Source: Candidatus Methylacidiphilales bacterium
Lineage (GTDB): Bacteria > Pseudomonadota > Gammaproteobacteria > JASGCS01
NCBI GenBank assembly: GCA_030054035.1
Contig: JASGCS010000011.1
Location: forward strand, 1-53,689
Reading direction: 5' to 3'
Length of the DNA: 53,689 nucleotides
Shown here piece by piece: positions 35,567-52,956 of this stretch. Below the pieces are notes generated by a model. It saw only the letters and a list, made by a program, of their open reading frames with translations. It was not told the DNA's origin and searched no databases. Made by a program: the position numbers and the translations under genes. How positions within the stretch are numbered: position 1 is the first letter of the stretch; each line of letters starts with the position of its first letter.

Positions 35567-36889
35567 TTATAGTGATTCTAAAAAATAAATAATACGATCT
35601 CTTTGTTCTTTGCTTAGCTTTGAAAATATTTCAGTAACTTGCTTAGCTTCACCTTGATGCCATAAAATTGCTTCTAATAAATTTCTAGCTCTTCCATCAT
35701 GGAGATAATTGGTATGATTATTAATAAACTTTATTTTGCCTATTCCCCATAGCGGAGCAGTTCTCCATTGGTTACCATTAGCAAAACCATCAGACCTACC
35801 ATCGGCTAAACCATCACCTAAATCATGCACTAGTAAATCAGTAAATGGAAATATCTTTAAACCATCTAAATACGATTTATCACTTTTAGTTTGATATGAA
35901 GGTCTGTGACATCCTGCACATCCAATTTTTACAAATAATTGATAGCCATCTTTTGCCTGCCTAGAAGTAACTAAAGGAGCACTGGGTACAGTTATACCCT
36001 CCATATAATCTACTAATTGATTAAGTTGTTTATCTTGTAATTCATTAGGTTGATTGATATCAGAATGAATTTTATTGGTAAGACCAATATCAAAGAAGCT
36101 TGCGGCGGCAACTTGTTCTATAAGCGTTGAAGTGTTTGCCTTCCATCCAAACCTTCCAATTACTCCATGCGATATATAATTTATTTTACCTTTAACAGGT
36201 CCTTTGGTTGTTTCTTGCGATTTCATATTATCAATTATTTCTTTATCTGGAATTGCGGCTAATAATCCCAGACCGATTACTGCCGGAGCAACTCGTAATG
36301 AATACTGCGAGGAAGATGGAGGAATGCCTTTAGACCAATTTGAAAAATGTAAAATAAATTGTTGCAATTGGATTTTTTTCCCATCAATATCTTGAAAGCT
36401 GCTTAGATACTTAGGAACTATAGTAATCGATACATCGGGCTGGACGGGGTCAATTGCAAATGTTCTTAATTGTGATCCATACCTAGCGTCAGATGTTGTT
36501 ATTCTAACTAGAGAGGAAATTAATTGATTATTTCCATCAAGTAAAATAGCCCCTCTTCCATTATTACTATGACACCCTGAACAACTAGATCTATTAAACA
36601 ATGGACCTAAGCCACTTAACGATTTTGGTATTGAACCAGAGGGTAGCCATTGAACATTAAACAATCTATGACCTCCATAAAATGAATTGAGTAATGCGCT
36701 TGGTAGGGTAGCAAGAGGCATGGCAAAACTATCGCGGCCCTGCAACTGCGTTGTAGCATTGTCAGCTAAGGATTGTGGTATATCATCACTTGATGCCAAA
36801 CTACTTTCTATTGACAACACTTTGATAAATACAAATAAAACTACCGTAACTACATTTAAATTAGTATTTAGGAACATTAGTACTAACAT
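35567..36889 (-). CDS. Di-haem cytochrome c peroxidase-like thiol oxidoreductase (DUF1111)
   Basis: 440-residue exported protein. A hydrophobic N terminus acts as signal peptide (starts at 36889 or the ATG at 36877). Two c-type haem sites are CSGCH (C103, C106, H107) and CAGCH (C324, C327, H328). LPSGSIPKSLSGLGPLFNRSS and the C-terminal RTAPLWGIG and YLHDGRARNLLEAILWH are typical of the DUF1111 family. It overlaps the upstream imelysin gene by 29 bases. Imelysin plus DUF1111 genes are often found together in iron-regulated loci, so a periplasmic redox role in iron handling is likely; the substrate is unknown. Confidence 0.85.
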   Translation of the reverse strand: MLVLMFLNTNLNVVTVVLFVFIKVLSIESSLASSDDIPQSLADNATTQLQGRDSFAMPLATLPSALLNSFYGGHRLFNVQWLPSGSIPKSLSGLGPLFNRSSCSGCHSNNGRGAILLDGNNQLISSLVRITTSDARYGSQLRTFAIDPVQPDVSITIVPKYLSSFQDIDGKKIQLQQFILHFSNWSKGIPPSSSQYSLRVAPAVIGLGLLAAIPDKEIIDNMKSQETTKGPVKGKINYISHGVIGRFGWKANTSTLIEQVAAASFFDIGLTNKIHSDINQPNELQDKQLNQLVDYMEGITVPSAPLVTSRQAKDGYQLFVKIGCAGCHRPSYQTKSDKSYLDGLKIFPFTDLLVHDLGDGLADGRSDGFANGNQWRTAPLWGIGKIKFINNHTNYLHDGRARNLLEAILWHQGEAKQVTEIFSKLSKEQRDRIIYFLESL

Positions 36890-37988
36890 TATAGTATTTT
36901 GCTAATTCATATAAAGAGTTTGATAATTGCTTCAATGAATCCTCATATTCATGTGCGCTCTTAAAATCATTTGAATGCTCTTTTGCAAGTATCACATCTT
37001 TAAAATAATAAGGAAGCGCTCTAGCTTTAGTTTCTGAACGTACAATAGCATTAGAAATGTGGGAAGCCAATACTTTATTTTTATCTACAATTTCTTTATA
37101 CAACACCTCTTCCCATAATTTTTTTACACCAATAATATTATTAATATGATCATTTGTAGTCGTTCCCGAAAAACAAGACTGCTGCTCATTGGGATCACCA
37201 GAATCAATTGGCGCTAAAAATCTTTCTTGTAATATTTCCAAACCTACTAATGAGTGTGCACCAGTAATTATCTTTGTGAGTGACTCTTGTTTAGATAACT
37301 TTATAAACGAATTAGCAAAACGATTAGAACCTTGCCGAGTGTCTAATACCCATTGCAAATGTACGCTTTCCAAATCGTTCCGCAACTGTTCAATCAATAT
37401 TTTTAAATACAGTCGTTTTCGAATTTGCTCAGAATTTTCTATAAAATATGATGCCGACCTATTTCCAGCGTTTTCATTTTCAGAACGGACACCCCATACC
37501 ATGTACTCTATAGCATGCCATCCTAGGCTTACATATTTAGTGTCCTCTAATTGATTAATAATAATAATTTTTTCATTAGTCAAATCAAATGAGTTATTAC
37601 TAAGAAAACCTTTAATAATCTGGGAACCAGTTACTGCGTTATAAGAATCCGATTCAATAAATTGGTATCTAATTGGCCAAGAATTAATTCTAGTTTCATA
37701 TTGTTCAATAGGACCATCATAAAATCTAAATACTTCAGTCTGTGCATATAGAGCCCTCACTTCAATCCAATTCTTTCTAGCTTCATGTAGTGTCAATTCT
37801 GAAGGTTTATTTAATAGTGCTTGTAAGGAACTTTCAAGCTTTCCCAATGCTGTCAACACAGTACTGTATTGTTTCTCAACAAAAAAGACATAGTTTTTTG
37901 ACACCGTGTCAGCTTTTGCCATAAAAGCACAAATGCAAGTGGTTATGGAAACTATAATCATTGATAATAAAATTTTTCTTTTATTCAT
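36861..37988 (-). CDS. Imelysin-family (M75/IrpA-like) periplasmic protein
   Basis: 375-residue protein with signal peptide (cleavage likely after AKA, residue ~26). It contains the GxHxxE signature as GWHAIEYMVWG (G156, H158, E161), a putative metal site of imelysin-like proteins. No lipobox cysteine is at the cleavage point, so it is soluble in the periplasm. Family members are iron-regulated and thought to act in iron uptake. It heads a two-gene unit with the di-haem protein. A TATAAT at 38007-38002 lies 13 bases upstream; no convincing Fur box could be seen in the AT-rich gap. Confidence 0.87.
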   Translation of the reverse strand: MNKRKILLSMIIVSITTCICAFMAKADTVSKNYVFFVEKQYSTVLTALGKLESSLQALLNKPSELTLHEARKNWIEVRALYAQTEVFRFYDGPIEQYETRINSWPIRYQFIESDSYNAVTGSQIIKGFLSNNSFDLTNEKIIIINQLEDTKYVSLGWHAIEYMVWGVRSENENAGNRSASYFIENSEQIRKRLYLKILIEQLRNDLESVHLQWVLDTRQGSNRFANSFIKLSKQESLTKIITGAHSLVGLEILQERFLAPIDSGDPNEQQSCFSGTTTNDHINNIIGVKKLWEEVLYKEIVDKNKVLASHISNAIVRSETKARALPYYFKDVILAKEHSNDFKSAHEYEDSLKQLSNSLYELAKYYNVSTNVPKY

Positions 37989-38363: not shown

Positions 38364-39309
38364 TAATTATTGCATTCATTATGATGCGTAGATCATCTAG
38401 CGTTGGAAATGTGTTAAGAATTTGATGTCTGATTTGTCTAGCGTTAGAAAGGTGTGAGCAAATTAATGAGAGAGGCTGATAATATTTTCTTTCTAGGCGA
38501 CCATATTTACTTGCCAATGCTTCGCCATAATCAAGATATCTATTTATGCCGTCTTGTAATGGTAGTGTAGGTTCATTATAAAAGTGCTCTTGAAGAGTTC
38601 TGAGAAACAGTGGATTGGTAATCATGGCTCTACCAATCATGACACCATCTAGCCCTTTAGTTTTTTGCTGCCTGGCAAGTTGTAGTGACTTAATGCCACC
38701 ATTGATGATAATCGGTAATGTGGGGAAATGCTGTTTCATTTCAGAGACTATTTCATATTGCAGTGGAGGAACTGTTCTATTTTGACTAGGGTTTAATTTA
38801 CCCAGTATAGCTGATCTTGCATGCAACACAACTTCATCACAACTATTTAGCTGTAGTTTATTTAGTAAAGAATATAAATGATCTTTATCAATTGGATTTG
38901 TTAATCCGATTCTAGTTTTTACCGAAATAGGTATATTGGTTAATTGTTTAAGTAATAAAACTATTTCTATAAGTAAGTTTGGGTTTTCTATAAAGCTTGC
39001 ACCAAACCCACCTTTACAAACTGCATCACTTGGACAGCCAGCATTTATATTTATTTTATTTATTCGTGAAAAATCAAGGTGCGCTGCTATTCGTTTATAT
39101 TCGTTAATATTAGCACCTCCTATTTGAAGTACAATTTTACCTACTTCCTGAGACAGATCTAATTTTGAAATACATTTATCACGAACCAGAGCTGATAGAG
39201 AAATCATTTCAGTAGTAACTTGCACCTTGGGAGCAAGATACCTCATAAAAGTGATGAAATGTTTGTCAGTATACCCCATCATAGGGGCGCAATGAACAGC
39301 AAAATTCAC
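38332..39309 (-). CDS. dusA: tRNA-dihydrouridine(20/20a) synthase
   Basis: FMN enzyme reducing uridines in the tRNA D-loop. The catalytic cysteine is in NINAGCPSDAVCKGGFGA. VKTRIGL, HARSAILGKLNPSQNR (the DusA hallmark), NGGIKSLQLA and GVMIGRAM follow in order. 325 residues. The final residues DKPDSV are encoded antisense to the universally conserved 3' segment of RNase P RNA. The start overlaps the next upstream gene by four bases (ATGA), tying dusA to the signalling operon. Confidence 0.95.
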   Translation of the reverse strand: MNFAVHCAPMMGYTDKHFITFMRYLAPKVQVTTEMISLSALVRDKCISKLDLSQEVGKIVLQIGGANINEYKRIAAHLDFSRINKININAGCPSDAVCKGGFGASFIENPNLLIEIVLLLKQLTNIPISVKTRIGLTNPIDKDHLYSLLNKLQLNSCDEVVLHARSAILGKLNPSQNRTVPPLQYEIVSEMKQHFPTLPIIINGGIKSLQLARQQKTKGLDGVMIGRAMITNPLFLRTLQEHFYNEPTLPLQDGINRYLDYGEALASKYGRLERKYYQPLSLICSHLSNARQIRHQILNTFPTLDDLRIIMNAIISELTDKPDSV

Positions 39310-40130
39310 TGATTAGAAAAAGCTTCTAATTTAATTTGTGATAATTCATTTGAAATATTATCAACACTTAAAAACACTTCATCGGTACTGAACTCTTTAT
39401 TTTTTTTATACATTTCTCTCTTTTGTTCAATCATGACTTGCAAATCAACAAATTCTGTTGTTTGTGAAAATATAATTCTAGTTTCCAGATCTAACAAATT
39501 AAGAATAAAAGATAATTCATCTAAATATTCTTTATTAATTAACCTATCATTGTTTAATAATGGTTTTACTGCTTGCATTAATAGTATAAATCGTTGTTCA
39601 CTATCTTCAGAACTATTTATTGCCGATTTAATATTTATTATTTGTTTAAATGGTTGGGAAACATATTTATTGATAGTGTAGTTTGAATAAAATATATATC
39701 CAAATACTACACCAGATAGTGCAATAATGGTAATAATAAAATATTTTACTTTAGAGACTTGTGATTTACGTTTTTCCTCTAACGCTAGTTTTTTTTCTAC
39801 GTCTTGTTGATAACTGTTGTCCCAAGCTCCGTAGTCAACATTTATATTACTTTGATGTCTTTGAATAGTAATGTCTAATTGATTATTTTTATTAGACATT
39901 ACAGTAGTAATTTCACTATTAGTATTTTCTGGTTGCTCATAATTTTGTGAAAGTGCTATTGAAAGTCTTTCAATAATTTCAGGAGGTACTGAAGGTGTCG
40001 GGTGATTAAACTCTATCGCTTGTAGTTGCAATCTTCTAAGTTTTACATATTCAACTCTTGATATTTGGCCGTAAGCCACCGCCAAGGCTAACAGTCTGAG
40101 TTTACTACATTGTGATAATTTAAATGTCAT
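39306..40130 (-). CDS. Unknown bitopic membrane protein next to the kinase
   Basis: 274 residues from the ATG at 40130, four bases after the kinase stop; a longer start at 40190 lies inside the kinase. The N-terminal stretch LALAVAYGQISRVEYVKLRR (14-33) resembles the short SHOCT-like modules that begin 'G-I-S-x-x-E-Y' and often mediate oligomerisation. Residues about 45-125 are polar and probably disordered, 130-149 form one transmembrane helix (YFIITIIALSGVVFGYIFYS), and the C-terminal 125 residues are helical and presumably periplasmic. I do not recognise a family. The context (kinase upstream, tight spacing) suggests a partner or substrate of the kinase. Confidence 0.75.
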   Translation of the reverse strand: MTFKLSQCSKLRLLALAVAYGQISRVEYVKLRRLQLQAIEFNHPTPSVPPEIIERLSIALSQNYEQPENTNSEITTVMSNKNNQLDITIQRHQSNINVDYGAWDNSYQQDVEKKLALEEKRKSQVSKVKYFIITIIALSGVVFGYIFYSNYTINKYVSQPFKQIINIKSAINSSEDSEQRFILLMQAVKPLLNNDRLINKEYLDELSFILNLLDLETRIIFSQTTEFVDLQVMIEQKREMYKKNKEFSTDEVFLSVDNISNELSQIKLEAFSNQ

Positions 40131-40134
40131 GGCA

Positions 40135-43100
40135 CTAAAACAGAGAACGCAACACTCTAAAACTTGTATAGTTATTAATTGTATTTTCATCGTAAGGTTT
40201 TGTTAACATGCTATTGCAAATCTCGTAGCGATCTTTAAAGTTCCCTCCAACTAAACTGAATGTTTGATTATTGGTTACTAATTCATCAGCGTTACCTACA
40301 TAGTTAATTAAACCCCATCCATTAGATTTTCCGATAGAGATCGCTTCCATTCTGTAACCACGGATCGTAGCACCATAACTTTTAATATTACAATTATAGT
40401 CAATATTACCTTCCTTACCATTGACATTTGAAGCATACTGCCACTCAGTTATAGTGGGAAGTCTATATTGGTAACCAGTAATATTAGATAGCCATTGTAA
40501 ATATGATTGAATTTCAGAAATTGATTTATTTGTAACAGGTAAATTAATACTAGTAGGATCATTATTCGCTGTACAACTATTACTTGAAATACAATAGTTA
40601 TTAAAATCCCCAACAGAAACCTCGTATTTGCCAATCGCAAATGGTTGTTCGTTATTTTTACTTGGTATTATAACTAACAGTGGTCCTAAGTTATTTTTAT
40701 CGAGAGTATCCTGACAGGTGGCTCTAGAATCTTTTCCTAAACCGGCGTAACTTTCAAAACACACTCTCCGTTCGATAGTTTTATTATTATTTAGAGAATT
40801 TTTACCAAGATCACTTATCATTTTATTAAGTCTCTTAGATGCTAATTGATACTCCTCTCGATCGCTCCATATTTTTATTGCTTTATCCAACTCTATTTTT
40901 GCATCATTTGGTTTAGGCTTACTTGAGGATAATTTAGATTCGTATGCTTTATAGTAAGCTATTGATTCGGTTATCGCTTTTTTAATCAATCTACCTAACT
41001 TGATTGTGTCTTCGTGGTAAGGTTCATGTGTAGTTGCATTTGTATAATATTCTTGTGCTTTAGATAATTTCCCTTCACTAACAAGATTAATTCCTACAGA
41101 AGCGTATTTTGAAGGGATTGGCTTTTGACTTAATGATATCTTATCCAACCTTGGCCGAGAAGAGGGAAATTTACTATAAAGCTTATCTCTGAGATCCCAT
41201 GCCAGTACAATATTTTTATTAGTATTATTTTCAGTGATACTTATTATTGTTCGAGCTACAACATAGTTCTCAAAACTATTTCTTAATGACACATTATCTG
41301 ATTTCATAATCTTATCAGCCAGTGCTATTTTAAATTCTACTTGAAGAGATTTTATAAATTCAAGTATTTCTAATCTCAACATAACATTATTATGAATTTC
41401 CATTAATCTAGTGTTATTTAAATTAAGTAATAAACCATTTTCAACTATAGAATTAACCTCTGTCAAAAGTTTACTATTTTTTATTAGCTCATCAACATTA
41501 TTAGGATCGGGCAACTGTTTATATGTTAATTCAGCAATTTTAATATAACTTAATGCAATTGAGTTTTTAAACATAAGCTTATCTGGCGTTTCAGGATATT
41601 TAGAATATTCCTTATAAAGTTTTTCAATTACTTTAATATTATCTGTATTAATGGCATTAATAAGCTCTCTTTTAATGTTAAGTATTTTTTTCTCAGTAAT
41701 CCTATTATTTTGATCTTTTATAAGTAAATTATTCAATTGCACTAGTTCACTTTGCATTTTGGAAAGCATATCACTATTTTCAGTTAAATCTTTTACTATT
41801 ATGAAGTACAAAAGTGCACTATCATAATCAACCTCCATTACAGCGTTGTTAAATTGATTCAATAGTAACTGATCAACCTGATCGGTTAAAGATTGCAACT
41901 GGTTTTTTGAATTACTGAGTATTATTAACTGTTTATAATTCCTTATAAATTCATTATACCTATTTGGTAAGGTCAAATCGTTATTTTTCTCTAAAATACT
42001 ATAATATTCTTTTGTGTTAGCTGAAATTGTATTAACATTTTCATTAAGAGAATTATTTTCTAGCAATTTCTCCATTTCTTTAATTAACGTTTTAGCAGAT
42101 ATAAAATATTGAGTAGATTTTAAAGAATGAAATTTATTTTTATTTTCCAATGTTTTATAGTATCCAATTACTGATTGTTCTAATTTAGTCGCCTTGGATT
42201 GTATTACTTTGCTGGATAAATTATTTTTTGTATTGATACTACCTAACACTTGTTCCGATATAAAAAAGGGGGAAAATAATAAATCATAATCTTGGTTATT
42301 ATATGTAGTTGTAATTTCATATGACTTATTACCTTGATAAATCTTGAATTGATTAAGAATTGCATCAAGTTGTAATGCACTCACAATTTTATATTGTTCA
42401 TCAAACTGATTAATCCGTTCAATTTTTTTTTCAACTCTATCAAATTGTTTTTGAATAGCGCCATTAATTGCATTTAATTTGATCAATTCTTCTTTTGTTT
42501 GTTTGATGTAATCTTCTATTTTCAGTATTGAATTGTTATAGGTTTTATTTTTCACAACTTCAATAGCGCGATCTAAAATCTCAGGCACAAAAATACTGGA
42601 ATTACTAAGCTGACCAATTATTATAAGTAATTTTTTTAATTTATCTATATCATTTTCTTTTATAAATTCATCAATGATTTTAAGACTTAATGTATTCTTC
42701 GCTTTACATAACGAAGTTCTATAATCTCTTACTTCCTTTGAATCAGGATAAATATAGTAAAGCGAGTCAATTAACGCAGCTGCTTCATTATATCTAAGCG
42801 TGTTTGATTCGTAATCTATTTTTGACGATTTTGATTCTGGTGGTATAAATAATTTTTGCGACTCATTTTTAGCAAAAGTTATTAAAGATTTCTGTGCGTT
42901 GGTATAAATTAAATATTTATCATATCCAACCCCAAGCAATTTATCGATTAGTGTTAAAGATCCATCAGATTTTTCTTTCACTTTTTCTGAACTTAACTTG
43001 AGCGTATCTTTATTCTCAGTAGAATACTCACAAACCTCATCATTAAAATTTATTGACTGAGTTTCAGTAGATAAATTTTTAATTGACCTTAGTGCTTTGT

Positions 43101-44721
43101 ACTTTAAATCTATATCATCTGAGTATAATTCAGCAAGTACTGTATTAGTATTTTTTTTAGTTAGCCGCTCCGCATAAAAAGTGCGAGTGACCATTGCCAA
43201 AATTACTATTGATAAAAAAGATACACTAATGATACTTAAAGAGTGATTCGGCCTTGGGCGAATGCCTTCCATAAATTCGTGAATTGACTTTATTCTATTT
43301 TTTCTACGCAATGCAATTGATTTTTCCAAAGTGTATTTCTGAAGATCAGTTAGAGAGGTTCGATCTAGAGAGGGAGGCTGTAAATTATTTTCTACCGCAT
43401 AAACAGCAGTTTTTTTCCTGTATGGATGAGCTCCCAATAACAACTCATAACACACACAACCCAGCGCATAAATATCATCTGCAGGATCTGGATTTTGTTG
43501 AAAGTGCATCTCATAACTTGCATAGGCAGGAGTGAGTGCATTCATTGAAGACGGATCAAACAAAGTTTTGTCAACTGATTTTTCCTCAATACTTGTACTA
43601 GTATTTTGATTATTTTCATCCAATTTAGTAATACTAGTATTTTCTGAAAGAGAGTCGATTTGGATTTCATCCAATTCGGTCACTTCTCTCTCACTTGCAC
43701 TTCCAGCTCGAGCAATACCAAAATCAATCACTTTAACTGTTTGTTGTTTAGTTTGTTGATTTTCAACAAGGTATGCATTACCAGGTTTAAAATCTGAATG
43801 TATTAGTTGATTTTTATGGGCATAGCCAAGTGCATTTGCTAGTCCTTCAATAATTGGCCACGCTTCTGCAAAACTTAACCCTTTTTTTGGGACAACTTGG
43901 GTGCTTATAAATTCCTTTAATTCAATTCCACTAAGTAATTCCATTGTCATATAGATAGTACCAGTTGATTCTTCTCTATCAAAATCATACACAGTGGCAA
44001 TATTTGGATGGGCAAGTCTCTGTGATTTACTTGCTTCACGCTCTAAAATTATGAATGAGTTAGCGTGCTTTTTAAAATCATCAGTTAATAACTTGATCGC
44101 AACATAGGGCTGCTTATTTTTAGCTTCATATTTGATTAAGTCAAGTGCTTTATACACTTTTCCCATACCCCCGACACCTAAAAGACTTTCTAACCTAAAT
44201 CTTCCTTTTAGAACGGTGCCCACATCTAACTTATTGGAAACATTTGAACCTTTTAAATTAAAATTATCCGAATAACCAGTTCCTGTCAGGAAAGCGCCAG
44301 TTGATTGTAAAGTTTTATCTGTAATTGAATGTCTGTCAGCGACAACATCAATTTCAGTCCTATCTTGAGACAAATCTTTACTATTTGTATTATCTAAATC
44401 GTGGTTAGTCGTATCAATTACTACAGTTTTTTCAGCATCAATTACTGTAGTTTTTGCAATGGTTTTTTCGTTATCAATATTGCTATCTGATGCTAGGAGT
44501 GTTTCAGTGAGTGATTTATCGTATCGCTCTAAAAAGTAATCAATGAACTCTTGTGGAACAGAAGTATTGGTATGTTTCTGATTATACTCAACAATGGTTT
44601 GTTTAAAATTCGTTACTCCATTAGGGATTTCTTTTATTGCAGCGTCAATTCTATTTTTAATACTTCTTTTATCATAATCGCCTCTTGCGATTTCATCAAG
44701 AATTTTAAGTATCTGATTCAT
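40135..44721 (-). CDS. Giant transmembrane Ser/Thr kinase with C-terminal FGE/SUMF1-like domain
   Basis: 1528 residues from the ATG at 44721. Order: a helical N-terminal segment (1-70), a T/D-rich linker (75-165), a kinase domain (about 170-485), one transmembrane helix (about 494-514), a ~800-residue helical periplasmic region, and a C-terminal SUMF1-like domain in the last ~180 residues. Kinase motifs: P-loop GVGGMGKV, VAIK lysine (residue 210), HSDFKPGN in the catalytic loop and IDFGIAR. The activation segment carries an unusual ~55-residue S/T/D-rich insertion before TPAYASYEM. The end domain has GKYEVSVGDFNNYC, YRLPTITEWQYA and FRVLR, typical of SUMF1 folds that bind rather than generate formylglycine. 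TxxD motifs, favoured by FHA domains when phosphorylated, occur at T92, T122, T348, T365 and T386. It is probably an envelope sensor; the phosphatase gene lies 19 bases upstream. Confidence 0.9.
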   Translation of the reverse strand: MNQILKILDEIARGDYDKRSIKNRIDAAIKEIPNGVTNFKQTIVEYNQKHTNTSVPQEFIDYFLERYDKSLTETLLASDSNIDNEKTIAKTTVIDAEKTVVIDTTNHDLDNTNSKDLSQDRTEIDVVADRHSITDKTLQSTGAFLTGTGYSDNFNLKGSNVSNKLDVGTVLKGRFRLESLLGVGGMGKVYKALDLIKYEAKNKQPYVAIKLLTDDFKKHANSFIILEREASKSQRLAHPNIATVYDFDREESTGTIYMTMELLSGIELKEFISTQVVPKKGLSFAEAWPIIEGLANALGYAHKNQLIHSDFKPGNAYLVENQQTKQQTVKVIDFGIARAGSASEREVTELDEIQIDSLSENTSITKLDENNQNTSTSIEEKSVDKTLFDPSSMNALTPAYASYEMHFQQNPDPADDIYALGCVCYELLLGAHPYRKKTAVYAVENNLQPPSLDRTSLTDLQKYTLEKSIALRRKNRIKSIHEFMEGIRPRPNHSLSIISVSFLSIVILAMVTRTFYAERLTKKNTNTVLAELYSDDIDLKYKALRSIKNLSTETQSINFNDEVCEYSTENKDTLKLSSEKVKEKSDGSLTLIDKLLGVGYDKYLIYTNAQKSLITFAKNESQKLFIPPESKSSKIDYESNTLRYNEAAALIDSLYYIYPDSKEVRDYRTSLCKAKNTLSLKIIDEFIKENDIDKLKKLLIIIGQLSNSSIFVPEILDRAIEVVKNKTYNNSILKIEDYIKQTKEELIKLNAINGAIQKQFDRVEKKIERINQFDEQYKIVSALQLDAILNQFKIYQGNKSYEITTTYNNQDYDLLFSPFFISEQVLGSINTKNNLSSKVIQSKATKLEQSVIGYYKTLENKNKFHSLKSTQYFISAKTLIKEMEKLLENNSLNENVNTISANTKEYYSILEKNNDLTLPNRYNEFIRNYKQLIILSNSKNQLQSLTDQVDQLLLNQFNNAVMEVDYDSALLYFIIVKDLTENSDMLSKMQSELVQLNNLLIKDQNNRITEKKILNIKRELINAINTDNIKVIEKLYKEYSKYPETPDKLMFKNSIALSYIKIAELTYKQLPDPNNVDELIKNSKLLTEVNSIVENGLLLNLNNTRLMEIHNNVMLRLEILEFIKSLQVEFKIALADKIMKSDNVSLRNSFENYVVARTIISITENNTNKNIVLAWDLRDKLYSKFPSSRPRLDKISLSQKPIPSKYASVGINLVSEGKLSKAQEYYTNATTHEPYHEDTIKLGRLIKKAITESIAYYKAYESKLSSSKPKPNDAKIELDKAIKIWSDREEYQLASKRLNKMISDLGKNSLNNNKTIERRVCFESYAGLGKDSRATCQDTLDKNNLGPLLVIIPSKNNEQPFAIGKYEVSVGDFNNYCISSNSCTANNDPTSINLPVTNKSISEIQSYLQWLSNITGYQYRLPTITEWQYASNVNGKEGNIDYNCNIKSYGATIRGYRMEAISIGKSNGWGLINYVGNADELVTNNQTFSLVGGNFKDRYEICNSMLTKPYDENTINNYTSFRVLRSLF

Positions 44722-44740: not shown

Positions 44741-45469
44741 CTACGTATCTGATACTTCGACCACAATGACCGTTACATTATCATCTGCATGATTCTCTAA
44801 AGCTTTTGCAATTAAATTTTCAGCCGCGCGCATTGGTATATCAAATAATTGAACTCTAATTTCTTCATTAGACAAAGCTTTATAGAGCCCATCACTACAT
44901 AACAAAAATTTATCGCCGGGTTTTACTGGCAGACAATCAATATCTACATAAAGTTCCTCGACCGCTCCAACAGCTCTAGTGATTATATTTGCCGATGGGT
45001 GTTTTTCAGCCTCCTCAAGAGTGATTTGACCACGATCTACTATTTCTTGAACATAGGAATGATCATGAGTAACCATGGAAAGTAGGTTATCTCTGTAGAT
45101 ATAAATTCTACTGTCTCCTGACCATAAGAAATAGGCATTTGAACCATAACCAAGCAACATTGCAACCGTGCTACCCATTATTTGGTTACCATTTGTTGCA
45201 AGATTCATCCGAAGCTCCTTATTAAGAGAAATCAATGTGTCTTCTATATTTTCAATAGTGCTACTTAGGGATTTTTTTAAAGAAAAATTTTCAAATGCTT
45301 GTTTGATTTTAGAACTCGCCACATCCCCCCTTGCATGACCTCCCATACCATCGGCAACAACCCATAACATTTGATCCGGCAATGTTAGAAAAGAGTCTTC
45401 ATTAATTTTTCTATGGCCTGCACCTACATTGGAAAAACCACATGAACGCCAAACTAACTGTTTATTCAT
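44741..45469 (-). CDS. PP2C-family (PPM) Ser/Thr protein phosphatase
   Basis: 242-residue soluble phosphatase. Metal-binding motifs are intact: RKINEDSF, VVADGMGGHARGDVAS, LWSGDSRIYIYR, LLCSDGLYKAL and HADDNVTVIVV. No transmembrane segment or extra domain. It is the first gene of the reverse unit phosphatase-kinase-membrane protein-dusA, and bacterial PPM enzymes next to Hanks kinases normally remove the kinase's phosphates. The kinase start is 19 bases downstream. The shared 109-base gap with gltX should hold its promoter. Confidence 0.95.
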   Translation of the reverse strand: MNKQLVWRSCGFSNVGAGHRKINEDSFLTLPDQMLWVVADGMGGHARGDVASSKIKQAFENFSLKKSLSSTIENIEDTLISLNKELRMNLATNGNQIMGSTVAMLLGYGSNAYFLWSGDSRIYIYRDNLLSMVTHDHSYVQEIVDRGQITLEEAEKHPSANIITRAVGAVEELYVDIDCLPVKPGDKFLLCSDGLYKALSNEEIRVQLFDIPMRAAENLIAKALENHADDNVTVIVVEVSDT

Positions 45470-47202: not shown

Positions 47203-48132
47203 ATGACCACACAAACCAATAAAGTTATACTTTTTGCAGATATCACAGGAAGTACTAAACTATATGATACTTACGGCAATCAAATTGCAGAAAGTATCAT
47301 ATCCATCTCACTTTCAAAAGTTAAAGATATAATCAAAAAATATAACGGCACTGTAATCAAAACAATAGGGGATGAAGTTATGTGCTCTTTTGAGAGTGGA
47401 AATGAGGCATTAGATTCTGCAGCTGCAATACATTTAACCTTTAATGATCACAAGGTTTTAGATAAATATACAATTTCATTTAAAATTGGTGCAGATTACG
47501 GTGAAGTTATAATGTCAGATAACGATTTATTTGGTAATGCAGTAAATATCGCTTCACGCATGACATCAATTGCGCGTTCATCTCAAACCATTTATTCAGA
47601 ATCACTTTATAACTATTGCGACGAAGATCATAAAAACAATTCAAGAAAATACGACATAACTAATGTAAGGGGTAAAGAAGCTAAACTTACTATTTATGAA
47701 CATATGTGGGAGACTGAGGAAAATACAGAATTAACACGAATAGCAAGTCACAATTCTTCAACATTTTCAACTGAAGAACATCAATATCTTAGTGAAGAAA
47801 TAGCATTAACATATATGGGTGAAAAATTCATCTATCAAAGTACTCTAACCGAAGCAATAATGCTTGGAAGAGCAATTGACAACACTCTCGCAGTATCATC
47901 AACTTTTGCTTCTAGGTATCACGCTAAAATTGAGTACAGAAGAAATAAATTCATAATAAATGATCAAAGTACTAACGGCACTACAATAATTATAGAGAAA
48001 AATAACCCCCTGTATATCAAAAGAGAAGGTTTACCATTAATTAATAACGGCAAAATAATCTTTGGTCTATACAAAGATGGGGAATTTATTAGTGAAAATA
48101 TGATAGAATTCACAATAAATAAGAAAGTCTAA
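47203..48132 (+). CDS. Class III nucleotide cyclase fused to an FHA domain
   Basis: 309-residue soluble protein. The N-terminal half is an adenylate/guanylate cyclase catalytic domain with both metal aspartates (D13 in LFADITGST, D57 in TIGDEVMCSF) and the transition-state N/R pair in FGNAVNIASRM, so it should be active; ATP rather than GTP is likely but not certain. The C-terminal part, from about residue 210, is an FHA domain with the full signature LGRAIDNT, SRYHAKI and NDQSTNGTT, which binds phosphothreonine. There is no membrane segment. The nearby kinase has several TxxD sites that such a domain would prefer, so kinase activity may recruit or control the cyclase. It is convergent with the TpsB-like gene, seven bases apart. 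Confidence 0.93.
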   Translation: MTTQTNKVILFADITGSTKLYDTYGNQIAESIISISLSKVKDIIKKYNGTVIKTIGDEVMCSFESGNEALDSAAAIHLTFNDHKVLDKYTISFKIGADYGEVIMSDNDLFGNAVNIASRMTSIARSSQTIYSESLYNYCDEDHKNNSRKYDITNVRGKEAKLTIYEHMWETEENTELTRIASHNSSTFSTEEHQYLSEEIALTYMGEKFIYQSTLTEAIMLGRAIDNTLAVSSTFASRYHAKIEYRRNKFIINDQSTNGTTIIIEKNNPLYIKREGLPLINNGKIIFGLYKDGEFISENMIEFTINKKV

Positions 48133-48139
48133 AATATTA

Positions 48140-50143
48140 TTAGAAACTATATCTTATTTCTGCAAATATCATTGGTCTGTCTAAAGATACTTGAGCATTA
48201 AGTTCTTTCTTAGAAATATCATTAAATCCAATAGTTAATCTTGCGAAGATATAATCTGGATGATTGAATTGAAATCCAAAACCATAACCTGAAATATGTA
48301 CTTTATTTGGAGTAGTCTTAGAATGGAAGGCAAAATTATCGTAACCTGATGAGTAATCATAAAAAAGTGAAAACTGCATCACTTGACCCCATGTATAACC
48401 TTCATCATAGGGTAAATCTGATATACCTGGTGAATTCATGATAAATTCAATAGTACCAGACTCTGTATTGTCTCTAATATAGTAAGAATTAGTTACAGAA
48501 CGAACATCACCAGGACCGCCTAATGTGCTTTGAAATAGTGAAAATAGAGGGTCATTAGTAAATTGTGCTGAATATTTAAAAAGCATTGAAAACTCATCAT
48601 CAATTGACTGAAGGCGAGATAGCGAAATACTTAATTTTGAAAAATCTGTAGGTAATTCTTGACCACTTTGATTTGTTCCATCTTTTGAAATTGTTCGGTC
48701 AGAATCATGAAATTTTTTAGTAGTACCACCGAATCCAATACCAGGAGTGCCAAAAGTGTACTCAATACTACCTGAATTTAGAGCAGAAGTTGAACGACTT
48801 AAGTGTGAAAATACATACGATAAAGAAGCAGAGTCAAGATTAGGCTTCTGACTATTAGTAATTGGAGAACCTTCACGCTGATAAGTAGAGGAATCATTTC
48901 TTATTGTAAAATTGCTGTACATTTGCAACTCTCTAGTTTTAACCCAATATTGTCTGAAACTTAAATATAAATAAGAAGTATCACCTTCAATATCTAAAGG
49001 CTGACCATTATATTTAAAAGTATTTTTACCATAATTTAAGTCAAAAAAGGTACCAGGGTTCGAAATAGGGACAGAGTAACTTATAGAGCCATAAAAAGTT
49101 CCTCTTTTTGCGGATTGGGCGATTTGAGAGGTTTGAAAAAGTAGAGTTAAACTATCAGAAGATGAAGTTGGATTATTAGCAGTATAACTAAACCGCAATC
49201 TAGTACTACCTGTTTGTAAAACACCTTGATTATCAATATATAATTCAAACTGATTTGCTTTTTCTTTTTCTACATTAATCACGAGATCACTTTCACCAGC
49301 TGAAACACCCCTTGCAAGAGATGCAGACAAAGTTAAACCTGGTAAATCTTGTAAAAACATCATTCTACTTTCAAGACCAGATTTAGTAATTGGCTGATTA
49401 AGTAAATCTTCAAATTGATTCGTTATTTGTTGGGAAGAGTAGCTAATGCCACCAAAAACTTTAATCTGACCTAAGGTTCCTTCAAGAACTTTAAAAGTGA
49501 CAACACCATCAATAACACTTTGCTCAGGTAACCTAGCTTCGGAAAGTAAAAAGCCTCGATCTCGATAATATTCAGTTATTTTATTAGCTAACAATTGTAA
49601 TTGTCCAACTGAAAGGCCTGTTCTAAAAGACTTATTATAACGAAGATATTTTATTAGATCTTTAAATTCATCAGTTATATTATCTAATTCTTCAGTTAAA
49701 GTTGTTCCTTTTTCAACAAAATCTCTTAGTAAATTCCATTCATCATTAGTCAAACCAGCATCAACAATTTTATCAAGACCAAGAGCAATAAAACGTTGCT
49801 CTTCAATAAACCTCTGTAATTCAGCTATAAACAAAGAATTTTCTGGTCTATCTATTACGCCAGTGATAGTTATTTTATTGACTGGTATTTTTTCACCTTC
49901 ATCAATTCCTAAAGGTCTATCATAGACAGGTGGAATATCAAATATTTTCAATTTATCAGTAATTGTAGGAATTTGTTTATTAAAAATATTATTTTGAATA
50001 TCTTTAATATCTCCTTGAGTTCTTCCTAAAGATTCGACTGCTTCAGGGACTGGGACTGGTTTATCTACAGGTTCTGCAATTACAAATTCAAGATTAAGCA
50101 ATTGTAATAATACTGTAATAAAAATAATATTTTTATATTTCAT
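48140..50143 (-). CDS. TpsB/ShlB-type outer-membrane transporter (Omp85 superfamily), atypical
   Basis: 667-residue precursor with signal peptide (about 1-23), a proline-rich linker, POTRA modules (about 88-295) and a C-terminal beta barrel ending in phenylalanine (EIRYSF). The first POTRA contains a clear ShlB-type core (LQLLANKITEYYRDRGFL, LPEQSVIDGVVTFKVLEG), but an extra ~75-residue helical acidic block (about 100-175) is inserted after its first strand. The barrel's conserved VRGF/Y signature appears as VRSV in GGPGDVRSVTNSYY near residue 546. TpsB proteins export a large TpsA adhesin or haemolysin, but none is in the window. Instead it is the last gene of an ExbB-ExbD-ExbD-AgmX operon, so it may be energised or used by that complex. 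Confidence 0.85.
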   Translation of the reverse strand: MKYKNIIFITVLLQLLNLEFVIAEPVDKPVPVPEAVESLGRTQGDIKDIQNNIFNKQIPTITDKLKIFDIPPVYDRPLGIDEGEKIPVNKITITGVIDRPENSLFIAELQRFIEEQRFIALGLDKIVDAGLTNDEWNLLRDFVEKGTTLTEELDNITDEFKDLIKYLRYNKSFRTGLSVGQLQLLANKITEYYRDRGFLLSEARLPEQSVIDGVVTFKVLEGTLGQIKVFGGISYSSQQITNQFEDLLNQPITKSGLESRMMFLQDLPGLTLSASLARGVSAGESDLVINVEKEKANQFELYIDNQGVLQTGSTRLRFSYTANNPTSSSDSLTLLFQTSQIAQSAKRGTFYGSISYSVPISNPGTFFDLNYGKNTFKYNGQPLDIEGDTSYLYLSFRQYWVKTRELQMYSNFTIRNDSSTYQREGSPITNSQKPNLDSASLSYVFSHLSRSTSALNSGSIEYTFGTPGIGFGGTTKKFHDSDRTISKDGTNQSGQELPTDFSKLSISLSRLQSIDDEFSMLFKYSAQFTNDPLFSLFQSTLGGPGDVRSVTNSYYIRDNTESGTIEFIMNSPGISDLPYDEGYTWGQVMQFSLFYDYSSGYDNFAFHSKTTPNKVHISGYGFGFQFNHPDYIFARLTIGFNDISKKELNAQVSLDRPMIFAEIRYSF

Positions 50144-50149
50144 AAATTA

Positions 50150-51241
50150 TTAACCAGATGGTAAGAAATTTATTGGGAACCTTATTACAGCATTTCCTGC
50201 TGACGCTGGCTTAGCTTGAAAAATAAATAATTTGATTCTATCAACCATCTTTGATTCCAGCTCTGGAGATTTAAGCTGCGAAGAAAGTATTTTTACAGAT
50301 ACTACTGAGCCTGATGGAGAAATGGTAATTTCAAAAAGAATCTCTCCTTTGATAGTTGGGTTAACTCTTAATTCTTTTTGGTAAAGCCTATCCAATAAAC
50401 CTTTGTTAGTATCAAAAACAATTTGTACTTCTTCAGCGGTTCTTCCGCCACCAATTTGCTTACCTGCTCCAGACCCACCTTTTCCAGCTAGCCCTCCTGA
50501 GCCACCAGGACCGCTACCAGGACCAAAAGCCCCACCTAAAGCACCTTCCCGAACTGCTATTCCTGAGCCTGCTGATCCACCATCACCTTTCCTTAATTGA
50601 CCTGCATTTCCACTTCCTATAGCGCCTCGATTTGTGACCAATTGACTGCCACTTCCTGCAGTATTACCTTCTAAAGCTAAAACTCCACCACTAGTACCAG
50701 AAACCGAACCTGTTCTAACACCAGGAGCAACAGTTTTAATATCATTTGAGACTCCAAGGTTTCCAAAAGATTCACCAGGTAACCCAGATCCACCACCACC
50801 AATGCCTAAATCTGATAATTCACTTGATAAAGCTGCTAAACCTTCTTGAGATGCTTTTTTTCGTGCTTGTGATTTGTCATCAATTGAAGGTTTTTTAGTG
50901 ACTTTTTGATCAACTTTAGCAGATTGAGAATCTTCCTCTGAAGACTTTTCACTTTCAGCCTGAGCAGCTGCTCTTGCTGCTTCTTCAGCTAATCTTCGTT
51001 GTTCTTCTAAGTCCTTTTCCTTATTTTCTCTTTCTGTAATAATTGTATTAATAAGAGATTGTGGTACAGGTTGCGGAGGAGGAGGTGAGTACTCAATGTT
51101 ATATGCAAGATAAATTATTACAAATCCAAAAGCAAGAAAAGATCCTGCAAATAGATTTAGATGTTTTTTGTCCTGCGGAGTTTGTACCCATGGAAGGATT
51201 AAATCTCTTAATTGTGGAAATAAAATTGTAGGATTATTCAT
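50150..51241 (-). CDS. AgmX/TonB-like energy-coupling protein
   Basis: 363 residues: cytosolic N terminus, one membrane helix (about 30-47, FAGSFLAFGFVIIYLAYN), PPPPQPVP, an acidic/Ala-rich coiled coil (65-100), a long glycine-rich low-complexity linker (about 147-266) and a C-terminal domain (267-363, RTAEEVQIVFDTNKGLLDRLYQ, GEILFEITISPSGSVVSVKI). The end domain fits the AgmX/PglI C-terminal family, related to TonB, known from myxobacterial gliding and found with ExbB/ExbD-type motors. It lies 15 bases after the second ExbD and seven before the TpsB-like gene, so it probably links the proton-driven motor to the outer membrane. Confidence 0.85.
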   Translation of the reverse strand: MNNPTILFPQLRDLILPWVQTPQDKKHLNLFAGSFLAFGFVIIYLAYNIEYSPPPPQPVPQSLINTIITERENKEKDLEEQRRLAEEAARAAAQAESEKSSEEDSQSAKVDQKVTKKPSIDDKSQARKKASQEGLAALSSELSDLGIGGGGSGLPGESFGNLGVSNDIKTVAPGVRTGSVSGTSGGVLALEGNTAGSGSQLVTNRGAIGSGNAGQLRKGDGGSAGSGIAVREGALGGAFGPGSGPGGSGGLAGKGGSGAGKQIGGGRTAEEVQIVFDTNKGLLDRLYQKELRVNPTIKGEILFEITISPSGSVVSVKILSSQLKSPELESKMVDRIKLFIFQAKPASAGNAVIRFPINFLPSG

Positions 51242-51256
51242 AAGCTTAATATATTT

Positions 51257-51754
51257 TTATTTTCCGAGAGCGGCAAATGTAAGTCTTGTAAAACCAGCTT
51301 TTCTACCACTAATCATTATTTTTCTAATAAACTCATAGCTATGTTTTTTATCAGCTAATATAATAAGTTCATTCCTAGGATCTTCCTCGCCAGGTTTAAC
51401 CGATAGCCCACCTACATCTTGTGAGCGTACTGATATAAGTGCTTGTACTAACTCGTTTATCTCAACATCTGAACGACTTAAAACCTCAGCAACAGAAATA
51501 ACTTTTTTATTTTGTATAAGTATCTCAACTGGTGTGGCAACAACAACCATTGCCTCTTCTTTTGGTGCTTGTTCAGAAATTGAAAGCGGAGCAACTAGAC
51601 CAGCTGGAGATTGTAGTGGGTTACTTCCAGAAGTATTAACCAATAGAAAAAATAAAAGTAAAGTAAAAACATCCATCAATGAAGTTAACATTAACCCTGG
51701 TTGTTTTTTGCTTTTTGATCTTCTTCTCAGTCTTCCTGCAGTTCTTTTACTCAT
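51257..51754 (-). CDS. ExbD/TolR-family motor protein (second copy)
   Basis: 165 residues from the ATG at 51754; in-frame starts at 51784 and 51811 lie in or against the previous gene. It has a basic cytosolic N terminus (RLRRRSKSKKQ), one membrane helix with the proton-path aspartate (LMLTSLMDVFTLLLFFLLVN) and a periplasmic domain. With ExbB it forms a proton channel that energises the TonB-like protein. The sequence differs strongly from the first ExbD, so the two are probably distinct subunits rather than a recent duplication. Confidence 0.88.
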   Translation of the reverse strand: MSKRTAGRLRRRSKSKKQPGLMLTSLMDVFTLLLFFLLVNTSGSNPLQSPAGLVAPLSISEQAPKEEAMVVVATPVEILIQNKKVISVAEVLSRSDVEINELVQALISVRSQDVGGLSVKPGEEDPRNELIILADKKHSYEFIRKIMISGRKAGFTRLTFAALGK

Positions 51755-51773
51755 ACTAGTATCTCTATATTTA

Positions 51774-52286
51774 TCATGGGGCATCTCCGATTGCAAGATC
51801 AGGGAAAACATTTTTGGTAATTAGGTCACTAGGCTTGTCTTTATGTAAGCGAATTGCATCAATAACGCTTACAACAAAATCATACTTTACCTGAGGTTCT
51901 ATCAGGATAGTAGCGTCATTTTTATCAGGAAAACTACCTTTTAAAGTAAGTAGATAATCATTAAGGTCCTTATATCTATAACCAGGGTCATCTTCTGACG
52001 CATCAGGTGTTGAACCTTTCACATTAGCAAATGCTCTCACCACTTTTTTACCATCTGTAACTTCTATTCCCGAGCCTCGTACTATTACTTCTACCGTTAG
52101 AGTTGGTCCTTTTGCAGCAGCAGCAGCAGCGCCAGCTCCAGCAACTGTAGGTAAATTTAATTGAGTAACTGCCATTCTTGAAAAAACAGCAGTGGACAGC
52201 AAGACTGGAATAACTGTAACCAATATATTAAGAAACGCTGTTAAATCTACGTCTGTTTCTTTTTCTGCATGACCCTTTTTTGCCAC
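51774..52286 (-). CDS. ExbD/TolR-family motor protein (first copy)
   Basis: 170 residues starting at GTG, preceded five bases upstream by GGGAG, which decides the start. The membrane helix has the conserved aspartate and is followed by a run of small residues (VDLTAFLNILVTVIPVLL; GAGAAAAAAKGP). The periplasmic part contains DDPGYRYKDLNDYLLTLKG. Paired ExbD genes with an ExbB and AgmX are a recognised layout of gliding/TonB-like motors. It is 19 bases after exbB. Confidence 0.87.
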   Translation of the reverse strand: MAKKGHAEKETDVDLTAFLNILVTVIPVLLSTAVFSRMAVTQLNLPTVAGAGAAAAAAKGPTLTVEVIVRGSGIEVTDGKKVVRAFANVKGSTPDASEDDPGYRYKDLNDYLLTLKGSFPDKNDATILIEPQVKYDFVVSVIDAIRLHKDKPSDLITKNVFPDLAIGDAP

Positions 52287-52305
52287 AATAGCTCCCTAAT
52301 TAGAT

Positions 52306-52956
52306 TTAAACTTGTCCTGGAGCTTTTTTAACTTCAGTAATCAAGTTAAGAGTTTTTACTGTAGCCATCTCCATACTTGTCATAATTTCTGCAGCTTTAG
52401 AAGAATTTACAGTAAACATAATAAGCATCGGTACTGCTCCAAACAAACCCAAAGCGGTTGCGTTCATAGCCAAACCAATACTAGCTGACAATAATTCAGA
52501 CTTTAAAGCTGGCGGTGCGTCAGCGACTGCCTTAAACGCTTTAATCAAACCTATAACAGTACCTAATAGTCCTAACAGTGTTGAAATATTTGCATATAAA
52601 CCAATGTATGGAATTCTTTTTTCCAGTTGTGGAGTTAATTCGAGAATACCTTCCTCCATCGCAACTTCAATATCGTCTCTACGTCTAACTGCTGAAGATC
52701 TTTCCATACCTAGTATTAACAATCTTCCAATTTCACTTGGTTTTTTCTGAGCCATTAGCTTAACATCATCAAATTTACCTTTTTCAAGTAAAGGAAGAAA
52801 TTCTTTCCATGCTTTAAGATTTCTAGATCTGATACTAGATAGCGCAAAAAACCTTTCTGCAGAGATAGCAAATCCCAAAACTATAACCAACAGAATCGGA
52901 ATAGCAACATATGCTTCTGCTTTAAAAAAATGTAGTAGTTCATTTAAAAAATCCAT
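52306..52956 (-). CDS. ExbB/TolQ/MotA-family proton channel
   Basis: 216-residue inner-membrane protein with three hydrophobic segments, the first at about 15-35 (AYVAIPILLVIVLGFAISAE), the others around LLGLLGTVIGLIKAFKAVA and IGLAMNATALGLFGAVPMLI, which are the ExbB/TolQ signature helices. It supplies the stator of the motor with the two ExbD proteins. A GAGG precedes the ATG by about eight bases and a -10 (TATAAT) sits further up, so an internal promoter may start here. Confidence 0.92.
   Translation of the reverse strand: MDFLNELLHFFKAEAYVAIPILLVIVLGFAISAERFFALSSIRSRNLKAWKEFLPLLEKGKFDDVKLMAQKKPSEIGRLLILGMERSSAVRRRDDIEVAMEEGILELTPQLEKRIPYIGLYANISTLLGLLGTVIGLIKAFKAVADAPPALKSELLSASIGLAMNATALGLFGAVPMLIMFTVNSSKAAEIMTSMEMATVKTLNLITEVKKAPGQV

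Follow-up and report, generated by a model that had tools for sequence, protein, structure and literature searches.

A family of membrane kinases with an FGE-fold end domain as candidate receptors of a threonine-phosphorylation module for two-partner secretion

The window considered here, i.e. the whole stretch of DNA that was analysed, is contig JASGCS010000011.1 of assembly GCA_030054035.1 from a Candidatus Methylacidiphilales bacterium of the Gammaproteobacteria (53,689 nucleotides, positions 1 to 53,689, forward strand). A gene on its minus strand (40135 to 44721) encodes a protein of 1528 residues, in which a Ser/Thr kinase is followed by a membrane helix, a long helical arm, and a C-terminal domain with the fold of the formylglycine-generating enzyme (FGE/SUMF1) family. 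The initial annotation had pictured a single odd protein; what emerges instead is a large family whose gene surroundings are consistent, and the genes for a PP2C phosphatase, an FHA domain fused to a nucleotide cyclase (FHA-cyclase), and two-partner secretion (TPS), none of which entered that single-gene view, carry most of the meaning. Judged from sequences and structural models, the protein may act as receptor kinase in a threonine-phosphorylation module that serves TPS specifically, resembling PpkA of the type VI secretion system (T6SS) with a TagR-like sensor fused to it, a reading on which we are evenly divided. It suggests a little-known switch for the outer-membrane export of giant surface proteins (adhesins).

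Relatives of the kinase were first found in other families of the class by whole-genome search. Scanning genome contigs with the single protein returned no relatives; an alignment-based scan recovered them, at least 550 in reference genomes. The best 80 of these, together with seven further loci and the window, gave 88 kinases, reduced to 85 loci by the removal of the duplicates L080, L106, and L056, which lie on the same contigs as L037, L038, and L041. An FGE-like domain was detected by BLAST in 56 of the 85, and the 53 of these that are uncut at the start constitute the full-length set referred to below. In the plasmid collection, the matches listed included kinase-only relatives, none covering 80 percent of the query. 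Neighbouring genes were identified with Pfam for one or two members per cluster (for the exoprotein L049, for the parvulin-type isomerase L079) and by BLAST clustering for the rest. Across the 85 loci, the PP2C gene immediately precedes that of the kinase in 62 (56 of them with no more than 44 bp between the two), FHA-cyclase is found in 44, the ShlB/FhaC translocator in 37, the parvulin-type isomerase in 35, and the TPS-exoprotein cluster in 29. The record of L079 is titled as a Klebsiella pneumoniae metagenome-assembled genome and carries the locus with the gene order seen in other such genomes from Gammaproteobacteria; it is possibly a mislabelled bin.

Long kinases, of 1300 residues or more, are encoded at 51 loci, of which 35 have at least 6 kb of upstream sequence; these contain PP2C in 30 cases, FHA-cyclase in 27, the translocator in 26, the TPS-exoprotein cluster in 22, and either of the last two in 28, with DotU, IcmF, and TagF clusters in none of the 35. 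Kinases shorter than 850 residues, none of which has an FGE domain, served as an internal control and have TPS genes nearby in only 1 of 20 loci, a set for which no upstream length was required and in which some loci are cut by contig ends. In at least 92 percent of 43 FHA-cyclase sequences the cyclase residues D13, D57, N115, and R119 and the FHA residues R223, S237, H240, and N258 are conserved, as are D40, D193, and D230 in 61 PP2C sequences, all of them recognised functional positions. At L111, L115, and L126, a class I adenylate cyclase lies near the kinase as well as FHA-cyclase (Pfam for L111, clustering for the others). Five loci with both kinase and FGE domain are situated within T6SS clusters, namely L039 and L108 (Pfam) and L112, L114, and L123 (clustering).

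The same link was sought at the level of whole genomes in a survey of 369 genomes of the class. With a threshold of E 1e-20 or better for the C-terminal region, 31 genomes were retained, from which G164 (E 3e-22, 29 percent identity) was excluded to leave 30. The TPS domain was detected in 27 of these 30 as against 93 of the 339 others (p 1e-11, a value which, like those that follow, ignores kinship). For genomes with long kinases (frame of at least 1350 residues), the figures were 18 of 19 as against 102 of 350 (p 9e-9); T6SS, represented by TssC, was found in 4 of these 19 and 66 of the 350 (p 0.50). Genomes with short kinases (837-910 residues) had T6SS in 7 of 7 cases, compared with 63 of 362 others (p 7e-6), while G051, G178, G234, and G289 belong to neither length class.

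A quick tree of 62 kinase domains, with support given by the Shimodaira-Hasegawa-like approximate likelihood ratio test (SH-aLRT), separates 52 non-RD rows from 10 HRD rows (support 98). The window kinase, on a long branch and only provisionally placed, falls in the non-RD clade (98), as do T6SS-cluster kinases, and within it in a separate clade (96) of 37 rows, of which 17 lie near TPS genes, 20 carry neither label, and none is labelled T6SS. The T6SS labels of L042, L098, and L118 were not borne out, because cluster 32 proved to be PAS-SpoIIE and the cluster 35 member of L042 to be ClpB and not ClpV; those of L043 and L087 (true ClpV) and of L039, L108, L112, L114, L123, L140, and L141 (T6SS genes) stand. 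All rows so labelled, rightly or wrongly, fall outside the clade of the window.

The kinase gene begins with the ATG at 44721, one codon downstream of a TTG, and ends with the stop codon at 40137-40135. The initial annotation, which placed it at 40270-44721, had the start right and fell short at the 3' end, where the real stop adds 45 codons. Its description of a very large kinase with a helical arm and an FGE-fold C-terminal domain is borne out by Pfam, AlphaFold2, and structural alignment, with Pkinase (1.3e-28, residues 176-344) and FGE-sulfatase (2.1e-9, residues 1355-1484) both above their curated cut-offs; the kinase-FGE fusion itself is not new, because such protein names already exist in general annotation. 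All parts of the protein are encoded on the minus strand. AlphaFold2, run on residues 1-490 with 48 sequences and on residues 488-1528 (arm and end domain) with 42, predicts an N-terminal domain of four helices (residues 1-83, 44473 to 44721), with ten-residue means of the predicted local distance difference test (pLDDT) of 82-94 over residues 1-80, followed by a disordered linker (residues 82-162, 44236 to 44478) with pLDDT below 50. The kinase domain spans residues 176-487 (43261 to 44196; Pfam for 176-344, alignment and model for the rest). The single hydropathy helix of the protein follows at residues 494-512 (43186 to 43242, hydropathy 2.31), then the helical arm at about residues 513-1290 (40852 to 43185), as assigned from AlphaFold2 secondary structure and weak tetratricopeptide-repeat (TPR)-type Foldseek matches, and finally the FGE/PvdO-fold domain with six conserved cysteines at residues 1321-1528 (40138 to 40761; Pfam, VIA-align, and conservation).

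In the kinase domain, HSD (residues 308-310) replaces HRD, as initially annotated. It is not an oddity of a single protein, being present in 52 of the 53 full-length members (HAD in the other) and in 82 of the 85 loci (HAD in 2, HCD in 1). Ordinary kinases from these genomes and others of the class have HRD in 24 of 24 cases (25 loci were tried, one of which yielded no kinase), and therefore HSD is the marker of a non-RD kinase clade. Three plasmid relatives, two of them inside annotated T6SS clusters, have HCD, HWD, and HTD. The idea that HSD signals a dead or odd kinase was rejected because the clade as a rule has an HxD whose x is not R and because the remaining catalytic residues of the window kinase, K210, E229, D310, N315, and D333, are kept in 53 of 53 members in the alignment. 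In place of the APE motif usual in kinases, the 53 members have A-S/T-x-E-M. The S/T/D-rich insertion that had been noted in the activation segment is real, because the segment from D333 to M405 (residues 333-405) measures 73 residues against a median of 38 in the 53 members, the next highest being 62 and 62. The long insertion is largely a feature of the window kinase's own. Residues 350-355 and 357-393 of the loop are predicted to be disordered (pLDDT below 50) in an otherwise confident kinase domain.

The arm, counted between residues 520 and 1300, has 781 residues in the window kinase. Its length had been thought unusual, yet 48 of the 53 full-length members have an arm of 679-950 residues: besides the window, 41 measure 679-723 and six 841-950. 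The remaining arms, four of 243-247 residues (L108, L112, L114, and L123) and one of 525 (L039), belong to precisely the five loci within T6SS clusters. Wherever the model is confident, the arm is helical. The mean pLDDT of arm plus domain is 73.1 and the predicted template modelling score (pTM) is 0.44, and therefore local structure can be trusted, unlike the overall shape; the longest stretches of the arm with pLDDT below 50 are residues 553-600 and about 779-891. A disordered arm or an end domain without a SUMF1-type profile match, either of which the initial annotation had named as telling against it, was not found, the arm being mostly predicted folded and the profile matched. Foldseek returned only weak matches of TPR type for the arm, whose fold is tentative, VIA-align having covered mainly model residues 833-1041. 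Arm and end domain would lie in the periplasm, because one helix follows a necessarily cytosolic kinase and because six cysteines are conserved beyond it. A TPR superhelix of 700 residues would be very roughly 15-20 nm long, comparable to the periplasm in width.

The end domain is modelled by AlphaFold2 as a mixture of alpha and beta structure. Its best structural match is PvdO (5hha; Z 21.3, root-mean-square deviation 2.3 over 186 residues by VIA-align), followed by the Treponema denticola variable protein 1 (Z 20.0), PorK of P. gingivalis (18.5), and an FGE (18.4). Cysteines 1321, 1336, 1377, and 1383 are present in 53 of 53 members, 1444 in 51, and 1502 in 50, two members having a gapped end domain; this pattern fits an extracytoplasmic domain likely stabilised by disulfides. 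The initial annotation had asked whether the catalytic cysteines of FGE are absent, and the answer is divided. If the two copper-cysteine positions, placed by their spacing from the GG motif, are presumed correct, the first is Asp in 47 of 53 members and the second is Cys 1502, retained in 50. The fold of the FGE family is thus present and the pair of copper cysteines is not. The end domain is unlikely to be an FGE because the first of the pair is replaced by Asp, and it is probably a binding module, a role for which this fold has known examples.

A candidate phosphothreonine motif, [DE][KR]T, occurs 70 times in the N-terminal regions of the 53 kinases, compared with 16.0 +/- 3.8 in 300 shuffles, in counts that come from related sequences and are hence not independent; 28 of the 53 have it there. 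Its serine version (6 vs 13.8) and its reversed version (5 vs 15.7) are depleted. In the window kinase, four copies stand in the linker (85, 97, 120, and 135), and the activation loop holds a fifth at T386, a position that is Thr in 51 of 53 members. These threonines are putative sites of autophosphorylation and FHA docking. In the accessory small membrane protein encoded after the kinase, the excess of the motif is weak (9 vs 3.9 +/- 2.0).

Directly upstream of the kinase gene in the window and in the same direction lies that of the PP2C phosphatase (44741 to 45469, minus strand; Pfam PP2C_2 4e-12), and the small membrane protein follows the kinase (39306 to 40130, minus strand, from a likely ATG at 40130, the longer frame starting at 40190). 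The latter resembles the next gene of relatives in its hydrophobic segment and layout; it gave no match in Pfam and was not joined by BLAST to their next-gene cluster. The accessory protein and the kinase had both been placed in cluster 0, and a shared domain was rejected: the merge looks like a single-linkage artefact because direct BLAST of L048 found nothing below E 0.5. Often encoding 180-250 residues, the post-kinase gene reaches 533-753 residues in L072, L074, L076, L078, L086, L099, L100, and L102. FHA-cyclase, whose cyclase part is of class III, is encoded at 47203 to 48132 on the plus strand (Pfam Guanylate_cyc 2e-15, FHA 8e-9). The minus-strand genes from 48140 to 52956 form a series with short gaps or overlaps, comprising ExbB-like (52306 to 52956; MotA_ExbB 2e-23), ExbD-like (51774 to 52286; ExbD 1e-6), ExbD-like (51257 to 51811; ExbD 4e-12), and TonB/AgmX-like (50150 to 51241; NCBIfam NF033768 3.6e-16, above its cut-off) proteins and the ShlB/FhaC-type TPS translocator (48140 to 50143; Pfam ShlB 6e-17, POTRA_2 4e-11). 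The ExbBD-TonB-like module is apparently co-transcribed with the translocator. Genes belonging to these four Exb/AgmX clusters also come after the short-arm kinase at the T6SS loci L108, L112, L114, and L123. Elsewhere in the window (35567-37988, minus strand), an imelysin-like (Peptidase_M75) gene adjoins a di-haem oxidoreductase gene.

The genome of the window (G000; 1.7 Mb, 16 contigs, 96 percent complete) contains both parts of a TPS system, with the POTRA-bearing translocator in the window and TPS-domain exoproteins on other contigs. Its 13 TPS-domain matches are the highest number among 56 genomes searched; they lie on C2, C4-C7, C15, and C16, none on the window contig, in open frames of up to 4966 residues, and only two ShlB-type translocators were found. 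A second kinase of this genome (L142:6403-17999, on C7), of HRD type and 568 residues, precedes three genes of like orientation (206, 359, and 326 residues) and then a TPS exoprotein with FG-GAP repeats.

Should the protein indeed be a receptor of TPS, the order of events and the signal can be sketched as follows. By way of the arm, the end domain would extend through the periplasm in the direction of the outer membrane and there bind the translocator, an exoprotein passing through it, or some other ligand of the envelope. This contact would pair or rearrange the kinase, which may then phosphorylate itself (at T386 and the [DE][KR]T sites of the linker) and its partners; the FHA domain would dock on phosphothreonine and tune the cyclase, and PP2C would reset the system. 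The net scheme would be the TagR-PpkA-PppA-Fha pathway of T6SS, with kinase and TagR-like sensor joined in one protein and TPS in place of the T6SS machine. More tentatively, and with some doubt on our part, many Gammaproteobacteria might possess a phosphothreonine checkpoint dedicated to type Vb secretion, in which a kinase spanning the periplasm contacts the translocator or the giant substrate and drives an FHA-cyclase output. To our knowledge, secretion through FhaC-type translocators is usually pictured without post-translational control of this kind.

Several observations weigh against a dedicated TPS receptor. With the arm model weak overall (pTM 0.44), we can only infer the periplasmic reach of the arm. 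Between PP2C and FHA-cyclase, the window has two tRNA genes and a frame that, judged by eye, resembles glutamyl-tRNA synthetase; FHA-cyclase faces the opposite way to the kinase, and the TPS-domain search of the genome found no exoprotein gene within the window. Seven of the 35 long-kinase loci (L038, L054, L058, L060, L061, L117, and L119) lack a TPS cluster member in reach, and a search of the large frames at L117, L119, L054, L038, L058, and L060 yielded neither a TPS nor a ShlB match, those of L058, L060, L117, and L119 extending beyond the available stretch. One of these, L058:14699-23731 (minus strand), is a frame of more than 3000 residues with ten DUF5649 repeats and a cut start, adjoining FHA-cyclase and the kinase. 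In the survey, the p-values take no account of kinship among 30 genomes that represent 22 families, and in 20 of these families kinase and TPS occur together in one genome or more; G166 has the kinase and no TPS match at E 1e-10. The genome-level link is moreover not exclusive to long kinases, because TPS was likewise found in the short-arm T6SS genomes (7 of 7 vs 113 of 362, p 3e-4). Solved PpkA (5hnv) ranks only 23rd in Foldseek and is absent from the 60 sequence matches listed, which are led by PknB and PknA. Finally, TagR is reportedly FGE-like, according to Hsu et al. 2009, and no confirming paper was found in the literature searched.

The foremost alternative is a general envelope-stress kinase that senses the state of the cell wall or outer membrane and acts on many genes through FHA-cyclase and its cyclic nucleotide, TPS being merely a frequent neighbour. 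The output of a cyclase is global by nature, and PP2C and kinase stay paired where no TPS cluster member was found, e.g. at L038, L058, L060, and L117; we nevertheless consider it unlikely, given a translocator or exoprotein in 28 of the 35 long-kinase loci and TPS in 18 of the 19 long-kinase genomes. The arm could instead be a TPR-like scaffold on which unfolded TPS exoprotein is carried or sensed while in the periplasm, with the kinase reporting the load, as a long helical repeat-like structure and a parvulin-type isomerase in 35 of 85 loci might lead one to expect. A substrate scaffold of this kind is improbable, however, since the arm region is poorly conserved among relatives, with 17-24 percent identity to the window over arm and domain.

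That the locus is the remnant of a T6SS whose PpkA outlived it would agree with the short-arm relatives inside T6SS clusters and with the grouping of these kinase domains against HRD kinases, yet the catalytic residues of kinase, PP2C, and cyclase are all kept, long kinases do not track T6SS (4 of 19), and the clade of the window contains no T6SS rows; this we regard as highly improbable. A role as a T6SS kinase was rejected for this genome, in whose 96 percent complete sequence no match to TssC was found. The end domain might also be an active formylglycine-generating or other oxidising enzyme that the kinase only anchors or regulates. Its fold and score are those of the FGE family, but PvdO and variable ligand-binding proteins share this fold, and the Asp in 47 of 53 members at the presumed place of the first copper cysteine makes an enzyme scarcely credible.

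If the TPS-dedicated module is real, the threonine-phosphorylation logic of T6SS would be a more general envelope-secretion switch that also serves TPS, a relative of the T6SS trigger would track FhaC-type secretion as it happens, and a family seen in 30 of 369 surveyed genomes would gain a role that can be tested directly at the level of adhesin export. No description of such a kinase family or of a threonine-phosphorylation pathway for TPS was found in the literature searched, as far as its accessible sections go. Among known systems, the PASTA-type kinases (PknB/Stk1) share the kinase fold and are the nearest solved sequences; the window kinase differs in having HSD for HRD and no PASTA match in Pfam, and scores 164.7 bits with the Stk1/PknB NCBIfam model against a cut-off of 450. 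Chlamydial Pkn1 likewise joins a kinase to an FGE-like domain, by the description in the initial annotation. PvdO and the FGE/SUMF1 family are alike in fold (Z 21.3) and in the Pfam FGE-sulfatase match above cut-off, and unlike in that most members of the window family have Asp for the first catalytic Cys and that their six conserved cysteines are likely engaged in disulfides. SiaABC of Pseudomonas aeruginosa, a pathway of threonine phosphorylation that includes PP2C, belongs to a biofilm context in which the TPS system CdrAB matters for aggregation; the available part of its description mentions neither an FGE domain nor a long-arm receptor kinase (PMC7647112).

The closest parallel is the T6SS pathway of PpkA, PppA, Fha, and TagQRST. 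In published accounts, outer-membrane TagQ recruits periplasmic TagR for the activation of PpkA, TagR probably contacts the periplasmic part of PpkA and leads to pairing, and PpkA phosphorylates Fha, which PppA reverses (PMC6657622, PMC6082577, PMC10482370). As in that pathway, where the envelope protein TagR acts upstream of the kinase, the window family has a membrane kinase with a periplasmic part, a PP2C partner, and an FHA partner, and its short-arm branch sits in T6SS clusters with TagF and IcmF. Of the hallmarks of PpkA, the window kinase has the catalytic Ser/Thr kinase and the adjacent PP2C (as do 62 of the 85 loci) and lacks the company of a T6SS; its FHA partner is not of the Fha/TagH type, scoring 19 bits with the TagH model against a cut-off of 120. 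The window locus thus differs from the T6SS pathway in the absence of T6SS, in a sensor domain fused on a long arm, in an FHA domain fused to a cyclase, and in its link to TPS.

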